Of a stretch of DNA of 39,251 bases, positions 6,246 through 39,160 are shown piece by piece. Position numbers and translations under genes: made by a program. The notes below the pieces were generated by a model. The model saw only the letters and a program-made list of their open reading frames with translations. It was not told the origin of the DNA and did not search any database. The number at the start of each line of letters is the position of its first letter. Position 1 is the stretch's first letter. This DNA comes from Candidatus Omnitrophota bacterium (GTDB lineage Bacteria > Omnitrophota > Gorgyraeia > Duberdicusellales > 4484-171): the NCBI GenBank assembly GCA_021735445.1, contig JAIPHA010000012.1, positions 1 to 39,251 of the forward strand, read 5' to 3'.

Positions 6246-6308
6246 GTCACATGTTACATGTCACAAGTTACATGTCACAGGTCACAAGTCACAGGTCACA
6301 TGTTATGA
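6246..6308. repeat. Heptamer array, left arm of element 1
   Basis: Nine consecutive units in unbroken 7-bp register: GTCACAT, GTTACAT, GTCACAA, GTTACAT, GTCACAG, GTCACAA, GTCACAG, GTCACAT, GTTATGA. It lies between the stop of the four-helix-bundle gene (6311) and 11 nt before the GT2 start codon. It is inverted relative to the array at 6684-6725, so the two arms enclose the gene. Confidence 0.93.
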
Positions 6309-6310
6309 GG

Positions 6311-6670
6311 TTATAAGCTTTTATAAAAGCCCCAAAGTAAACTTCCTACTTTTTTTCGTAATTTTTTTAATTCTTCATGACTATCCCGATTGAGATAACC
6401 CAATTTTAAACTAAAATCAATAAGATATTCTGTTTCAGCTAAAGACCCTAAAGCGATATTCACAAATTGCTTCAGCTCTCTCTTTCCTTGCCTACCTGTA
6501 CCTTCTACAAGATTAGTGGGTATTGATAATGCTGCCCTTCTTAATTGAGAAATAATTCCATAAATCTCCTCTTTAGGAAATTGCTTAGTTTTTAGATATA
6601 CTTGGTAAGCTAATTCATTTGACTCTTGCCATACAATCAATTTCTTATACCCTATCTCTTTTTCTTCCAT
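6311..6670 (-). CDS. Four-helix-bundle protein (23S rRNA IVS / S23 family)
   Basis: The 119-aa protein contains the family's sequence signs: YKKLIVWQESNELAYQVY (N-terminal helix), FPKEEIYGIISQLRRAALSIPTNLVEG (helix 2, with the SIPxNxxEG block) and FVNIALGSLAETEYLI. Such proteins occur inside intervening sequences of 23S rRNA genes, as stand-alone genes, and as relatives of the Avd accessory protein of diversity-generating retroelements. Their biochemical role is poorly known. I start it at ATG 6670 (MEEKEIGYKK, preceded by AAGAAG). An upstream ATG at 6784 would give a longer frame, but that frame reads through the heptamer array and the end of the acyltransferase gene, and it would add a repeat-derived peptide (VTSHMSQVTCHKS). 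It is bracketed by the arrays on both sides. Confidence 0.88.
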   Translation of the reverse strand: MEEKEIGYKKLIVWQESNELAYQVYLKTKQFPKEEIYGIISQLRRAALSIPTNLVEGTGRQGKRELKQFVNIALGSLAETEYLIDFSLKLGYLNRDSHEELKKLRKKVGSLLWGFYKSL

Positions 6671-6683
6671 ATTCTTCTTAACA

Positions 6684-6725
6684 TTTGACTTGTGACATGT
6701 GACTTGTGACATGTGACTTGTGACT
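6684..6725. repeat. Heptamer array, right arm of element 1
   Basis: Six units in 7-bp register: TTTGACT, TGTGACA, TGTGACT, TGTGACA, TGTGACT, TGTGACT. This is the reverse-complement orientation of the array at 6246-6308. It begins 13 nt upstream of the four-helix-bundle start codon and ends 28 nt after the acyltransferase stop. Confidence 0.92.
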
Positions 6726-22506: not shown

Positions 22507-22632
22507 GTTATAGGTTACATGTCATAGGTCATAGGTCATAGGTCATAGGTCATATGTCACAGGTCACAGGTCACATGTTAACTTGTGACTTGTGACTTGT
22601 GACATGTGACTTTTAACTTGTGACTTGTGACT
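22507..22632. repeat. Palindromic heptamer element 2 (murF-mraY spacer)
   Basis: The left arm, 22507-22576, is ten units in unbroken 7-bp register (GTTATAG, GTTACAT, GTCATAG four times, GTCATAT, GTCACAG twice, GTCACAT). After GTTA the right arm, 22584-22632, runs TGTGACT, TGTGACT, TGTGACA, TGTGACT, TTTAACT, TGTGACT, TGTGACT. The inner arms can pair over about 22 bp. It fills most of the 168-bp gap in the middle of the dcw operon, 32 nt after the murF stop and 10 nt before mraY. Confidence 0.93.
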
Positions 22633-39097: not shown

Positions 39098-39160
39098 GTC
39101 ACAAGTTTTATGTCACAAGTCACAAGTTAACATGTGACATGTGACATGTGACATGTGACT
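39098..39160. repeat. Palindromic heptamer element 3 (leuC-leuD spacer)
   Basis: The left arm is GTCACAA, GTTTTAT, GTCACAA, GTCACAA (39098-39125). The centre is GTTAACA. The right arm is TGTGACA three times and TGTGACT (39133-39160). All are in 7-bp register, with the same arm orientation as the other two elements and no gene between arms. It starts 9 nt before leuD and ends 29 nt after the leuC stop. Confidence 0.93.

Follow-up and report, generated by a model that had tools for sequence, protein, structure and literature searches.

An S23 gene enclosed by inverted heptamer arrays

The window analysed here is the whole of a 39,251-nt stretch from a Candidatus Omnitrophota genome of the order Duberdicusellales (contig JAIPHA010000012.1). 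In this window, the spacer between a lipid A acyltransferase gene and a glycosyltransferase gene contains an element of about 480 nt (6246–6725, minus strand), in which one S23 gene lies between inverted heptamer arrays. The left arm (6246–6303, plus strand) is made up of about eight tandem GT[C/T]ACAN heptamers and the right arm (6684–6725, plus strand) of about six tandem TGTGACN heptamers; in the sense of the gene these are the 3′ and the 5′ arm, respectively. The enclosed S23 (23S_rRNA_IVP) gene (6311–6670, minus strand) encodes a four-helix-bundle protein of 119 aa and begins with an ATG at 6670, about 14 nt from the right arm; a longer ORF reading of 157 aa places the start further upstream, past the arm. 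The two arms form a 49-nt inverted repeat that is 88% complementary, with 367 nt between them, and as RNA the element is predicted to fold into a hairpin whose arms pair end to end and whose loop carries the S23 ORF (−130.4 kcal/mol, z=−5.3). The pattern GTCACANGTCACANGTCACA has 15 matches in the genome, and its reversed control has none.

The gene matches the Pfam profile PF05635 (23S_rRNA_IVP) with E=4e-34 and is the only such match in its genome, which is 84% complete; its match to bAvd is weak and falls under the family cut-off. A sequence-only reading of this DNA had proposed GTCACAN and TGTGACN arms around a single gene of the S23/IVS family encoding a four-helix bundle, and both the arrangement and the fold are borne out, the latter by a confident AlphaFold2 model (pLDDT 93.8) as well as by the profile match. 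Foldseek comparison of this model returned 2gsc (TM 0.87) and 2rld (TM 0.83), the closest solved S23 homologues, each of which contains five chains. The Xanthomonas S23 structure has been described as a toroidal homopentamer (PMC4990558). Where dN/dS could be calculated it was mostly 0.05–0.18, with synonymous differences near saturation, and on these sequence comparisons S23 is under purifying selection. We know of no catalytic motif in S23 for joining DNA or RNA.

Copies without a gene

The same arm arrangement occurs twice more in the window with no gene between the arms. One copy (22507–22632, no strand assigned) has inverted GTCACAN/GTCATAG arms and lies between mraY-like and Mur-ligase genes, and the other (39098–39160, no strand assigned) has inverted GTCACAN arms and lies 5′ of a leuD-like gene. 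These gene-less arm pairs, already picked out by the sequence-only reading, are real, and their predicted hairpins are far more stable than those of shuffled sequences (z −6.4 and −5.6, respectively). Both have a GTTAAC centre, which is shared with two further gene-less copies in the genome (contigs C6 and C33), and because of this common centre the four copies look like a defined form rather than random debris.

In the 344 kb sampled from this genome there are 19 period-7 arrays, compared with 0–1 for each other period from 5 to 12 and none in shuffled sequences. GTCACAN arrays recur elsewhere in the genome, but the majority of the period-7 arrays belong to several other heptamer families. 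Many array families have no matching S23 gene in the genome, which we count against the mobile-element reading. Where no S23 gene lies nearby, the units of this genome's arrays are often ones that also flank S23 genes in other genomes (mean overlap 0.47 vs 0.28 for scrambled units). On contig C25, a GTCACAN-type array also occurs inside a hisF-like ORF (L174:5423–5460), apparently in frame and encoding an extra loop, KKATSHKPQVTS, and a single-arm GTCACAN array (L174:7337–7400) occupies a 5′ UTR, where it stops 13 nt upstream of the ATG that opens a metallo-beta-lactamase-fold-like gene.

Heptamer arms around S23 genes of the order and beyond

A PF05635 search of the order found S23 genes in 38 of its 42 genomes, and their flanks carry inverted heptamer arrays with many differing unit sequences. 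To quantify this, the upstream flank of each of the 102 testable S23 genes was compared with the reverse complement of its downstream flank. The median inverted score was 17.5, against 9.0 at random positions, and was also 9.0 both for flanks from mismatched loci and in direct orientation; 74.5% of the genes exceeded the 99th percentile of random positions. The flanks match themselves with peaks at lags of 7, 14 and 21. Arm similarity within a locus was 0.235 in inverted orientation, compared with 0.041 in direct orientation and 0.009 between loci. The median element length is 473 nt, and the median distance from arm to ATG is 15 nt. The proposal that gene and arrays belong together had been staked on other four-helix-bundle genes lying by such arrays, and many others do lie between them. 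About a quarter of the order's S23 genes lack significant inverted arms, which counts against the element reading; decay, contig ends or a strict threshold may lie behind some of these. A minority of elements have period-8 rather than period-7 arms (L043 and L054, with TTAACCAA and TAACTCGC).

A contig scan with a tighter S23 alignment as query extended the comparison to 89 loci in cyanobacteria, Bacteroidota, Bacillota, Planctomycetota, Patescibacteria, Atribacterota, Methanophagales archaea and others; these come from the best 80 of 574 confirmed stretches and are not an unbiased census. Within these best 80 of 574, the median inverted score was 17.5 (8.5 at random positions), about 80% of the loci scored at least 14 (0.7% of random positions), and the median element length was 480 nt. 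The same selected set contains a core motif, T-A(0.72)-G(0.99)-K, with an information content of 2.96 against a null maximum of 2.61, which is strand-specific and present in both arms. The motif search on the order-level set gave a different, A-rich and weaker alignment, and the AG core therefore rests mainly on the cross-phylum loci. Five S23 elements (L123, L125–L128) carry CCCTAAA/AAACTCT units, which resemble plant telomere repeats by chance or convergence. On cyanobacterial plasmids, S23 genes were also seen within CRISPR-Cas operons, between cas6 and cas4 or between cas10 and cmr3 (L199, L206, L202).

Arrays are not equally abundant where the family is missing, the other outcome that would have spoken against a link. 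Strict period-7 arrays number 29 in the 852 kb sampled from S23-bearing genomes (33 in 891 kb with the window included) and one in 367 kb of the four S23-free genomes (p=3e-4). One genome with eight S23 genes (G024) had no strict period-7 array in its 140-kb sample, so array abundance does not simply follow gene number.

Heptamer units track the S23 protein

Pairs of S23 loci from different genomes, with no shared neighbours and with strictly non-coding arrays, were compared for array similarity and protein identity. Similarity was 0.158 at protein identities of at least 60%, 0.033 at 45–60% and 0.007 below 45% (permutation p=0.0002). DNA lying 300–600 nt further out showed no trend with protein identity and stayed flat at 0.10. 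The tracking was repeated among the cross-phylum loci, from the best 80 of 574 stretches, again with p=0.0002. Two loci at other sites illustrate this: L060, in another genus, encodes an S23 protein 75% identical to that of the window, and L053, with one stop in its ORF, one that is 62% identical, and both have GTCACAN arms. The match between unit and protein is a strong tendency and not a rule, since L061 and L062 (68–69% identical to the window protein) carry other units. With synonymous sites near saturation, common units imply that they were constrained or homogenised rather than simply copied recently. As judged from these sequences, arms and gene co-evolve or are co-inherited as one element, and either way they travel together.

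Probable mobility and turnover at orthologous spacers

DNA homology between non-syntenic relatives covers the arms and the gene (432–501 nt) and then ends; between the window element and L060 it is confined to a 432-nt stretch. The best S23 match outside a gene's own genome lies in another genus in 41 cases and in its own genus in 2, with genus mates available for comparison and some genomes incomplete.

The earlier suggestion to compare empty and occupied orthologous spacers proved informative: among sister species such a spacer can be empty, hold a gene-less array or hold a gene, and the heptamers differ. Across five species of the genus, the lpxL–GT2 spacer holds an S23 gene with GTCACAN arms in one and an S23 gene of another clade with TTAATTGG, the unit of L054, in a second. 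Two further species have gene-less occupants, one with GACGAAA arms and one with GGATAAA and ACGAATT arrays, and in the fifth the spacer is empty (~12 nt). Similar turnover of occupants is seen in sister species at the mraY, leuD and UDP-glucose-dehydrogenase-like spacers, and the spacers orthologous to those of 22507–22632 and 39098–39160 hold other heptamers there. The ACGAATT gene-less element occupies the leuD site of one species and the lpxL site of a second. No target-site duplication was readable at the compared sites, which counts against the element reading. The gene-less elements in the leuD spacers L151 (G032) and L152 (G031) are of the GACGAAA type, have a CCTTCGACTTCGCTCAGGCC-like core and are near-identical in the two species, although the flanking genes diverge more.

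S23 genes are co-directional with their neighbours in 144 of 162 cases, only slightly above other small ORFs (68 of 85). As an indication of spread at the RNA level, this co-orientation does not stand out clearly from background and was set aside.

Relation to known systems

The closest known thing to the window element is the 23S rRNA intervening sequence (IVS). In Coxiella burnetii the IVS (428–444 nt) has an S23 ORF in its loop and terminal inverted repeats that form the stem, and tandem GACAGAT heptamers, whose number varies between strains, lie just 5′ of the S23 start (PMC4990558). It has been called a selfish element, with mobility hypothesised only, and its S23 ORF was reported as probably not expressed (PMC4990558). 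The window element likewise has an S23/PF05635 ORF, terminal inverted repeats that close a hairpin, and a similar size. However, rRNA IVSs are located in helix 9, 25 or 45 of 23S rRNA, whereas this element sits in a spacer between protein genes and, because of its place, is not an rRNA IVS. It further differs in that both arms are heptamer arrays, with many unit families and gene-less copies. Within the open literature searched, the Coxiella IVS is the only case tying S23 to heptamers, and none was found for S23 outside rRNA. IVSs themselves are already known; S23 genes outside rRNA with heptamer arms are, as far as that search reached, new.

Heptamers in spacers have been described in Beggiatoaceae, cyanobacteria and others, where TAACTGA tandem repeats often lie just 5′ of start codons (PMC4679880). 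The elements described here share the 7-nt tandem units and the spacer location; the TAACTGA-type repeats were described as direct, with a single inverted case, and with no link to S23 (PMC4679880).

REP sequences and REPINs are alike in being short intergenic hairpins with gene-bearing and gene-less copies and a gene flanked by an inverted repeat. The REPIN feature of an inverted short-repeat hairpin in several copies per genome is present here in the four gene-less copies with a GTTAAC centre. Unlike in REP/REPIN–RAYT systems, the gene is S23 and not Y1, and the ends are period-7 arrays. The sequence-only reading is supported in part: its core, a mobile unit formed by the array pair, tied to S23 and with gene-less copies, withstood both conditions set to refute it, and the action of the protein on the repeats and on gene-less copies in trans is putative. 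The comparison to RAYT enzymes holds only as an analogy, as the Y1/RAYT genes of these genomes are bounded by inverted ends that differ and lack periodicity.

Alternative explanations

The arrays might be ordinary heptanucleotide microsatellites produced by polymerase slippage, with S23 genes among them by chance. Slippage has been proposed as the origin of heptanucleotide repeats, the most abundant class of 5–11-nt repeats in many bacteria (PMC4679880), and arrays without S23 genes are common in the window's genome. However, slippage yields direct arms and not the inverted pairs seen within loci (0.235 vs 0.041), heptamer units at unrelated sites go with the clade of the S23 protein (p=0.0002), homology spans arms and gene and then stops, and arrays are rare in S23-free genomes; we regard this explanation as disfavoured and highly improbable. 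That S23 is a resident host gene, whose arms serve only as a cis-regulatory hairpin in autoregulation or mRNA processing with no mobility, would fit the purifying selection, the stable folds and the short distance from arm to ORF (across the order, a median of 15 nt from the ATG). The nearest relatives at other sites in other genera (41 vs 2), the orthologous spacers that are by turns empty, gene-less or occupied by a gene and whose heptamers differ, and the existence of gene-less copies make it quite unlikely, but a regulatory role could coexist with mobility.

Two further explanations assign movement to another enzyme. If the elements were non-autonomous passengers of Y1/RAYT (IS200/IS605-like) transposases that act on hairpins, S23 would be an accessory. 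Y1 is found in 34 of the 42 genomes of the order, with four matches in the window's genome, and because it is also absent from three of the four S23-free genomes (G006, G013 and G018), a role for it keeps some probability. We nevertheless consider it rather unlikely, as Y1 genes have non-periodic inverted ends of their own, of AAAAGGGGACA type and without heptamer arrays, and five genomes have S23 with no Y1 detected (G008, G019, G025, G036 and G037). None of 18 testable Y1 loci had heptamer arrays, the maximum lag-7 match being 16/24 against a threshold of 20. In the L330–L349 set, the Y1/RAYT-like genes of the order often have short inverted ends (AAAAGGGGACAGCGACC, AAAAAGGGGTCACACC) with no heptamer periodicity. 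Alternatively, S23 could work like Avd of diversity-generating retroelements (DGRs), with a reverse transcriptase in trans copying hairpin RNA into DNA. The window protein shares the four-helix-bundle fold of DGR Avd (TM 0.77 to 4dwl, at a low identity of 11–15%), Avd occurs in a DGR reverse-transcriptase ribonucleoprotein (PDB 8ub7), and the element is plausibly transcribed. This retromobility is disfavoured and appears quite improbable, since a reverse transcriptase (RVT_1) is found in only 5 of the 42 genomes and in none of the five of this genus, in contrast to S23 in 38. Telomerase-like end addition, in which extension of both break ends would give inverted arms, was rejected as the main idea, as units vary within an array and reverse transcriptase genes are rare. 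Adenine mutagenesis of the DGR type at the variable position was dropped, as other A positions are constant.

A probable mobile IVS-like element and its implications

In our assessment, the stretch at 6246–6725 is probably one copy of a compact (~430–500 nt) mobile IVS-like element that occupies spacers between protein genes. At the level of sequence, the comparisons demonstrate a discrete element with inverted period-7 arms, co-specificity of unit and protein, non-vertical distribution and turnover at orthologous spacers. They are most likely selfish, IVS-like and located outside rRNA, with an S23 ring that would bind the arms and also act in trans for gene-less copies; both this binding and the way in which movement is carried out chemically are what we infer here. 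On this view, S23 seems to stand at the centre of a mobile-element family that extends across many phyla and has gone largely unrecognised.

Once transcribed, the element would fold back into a long hairpin whose loop holds the gene, like 23S rRNA IVSs, and trimming by RNase III would probably limit the harm to the host operon. The S23 oligomer is likely to recognise the heptamers of the element that encodes it, at about one unit for each subunit, whether in RNA or in single-stranded DNA. Such recognition would explain the constant period, the common (T)AG core and the match between unit and protein, and a ring with one unit per subunit would explain why the length of 7 is fixed while the sequence varies. 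TRAP is a mental model for a ring that binds one unit per subunit. S23 probably also acts in trans on gene-less hairpins that carry its heptamer, which would give rise to REPIN-like copies, and a putative enzyme would carry out the cutting and joining of element movement.

More tentatively, S23 proteins could have founded a pan-prokaryotic class of mobile elements. An oligomeric ring would in that case use tandem heptamers as an address and move both its own hairpins and, in trans, gene-less ones, with no need for a known transposase or reverse transcriptase; a substantial part of the heptanucleotide repeats in bacteria, rRNA IVSs included, might then be its products. If S23 itself is the mobility factor, the mechanism would be categorically new. 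The widespread S23, or "four helix bundle", family gains a testable role in recognising element ends, and matched and mismatched pairs of protein and repeat are now available for binding tests. Ends specific to a protein clade suggest where some of the heptanucleotide repeats of bacteria come from, and the recurrence of such inverted heptamer ends at the majority of sampled S23 genes, in many phyla, bears on how rRNA IVSs spread.
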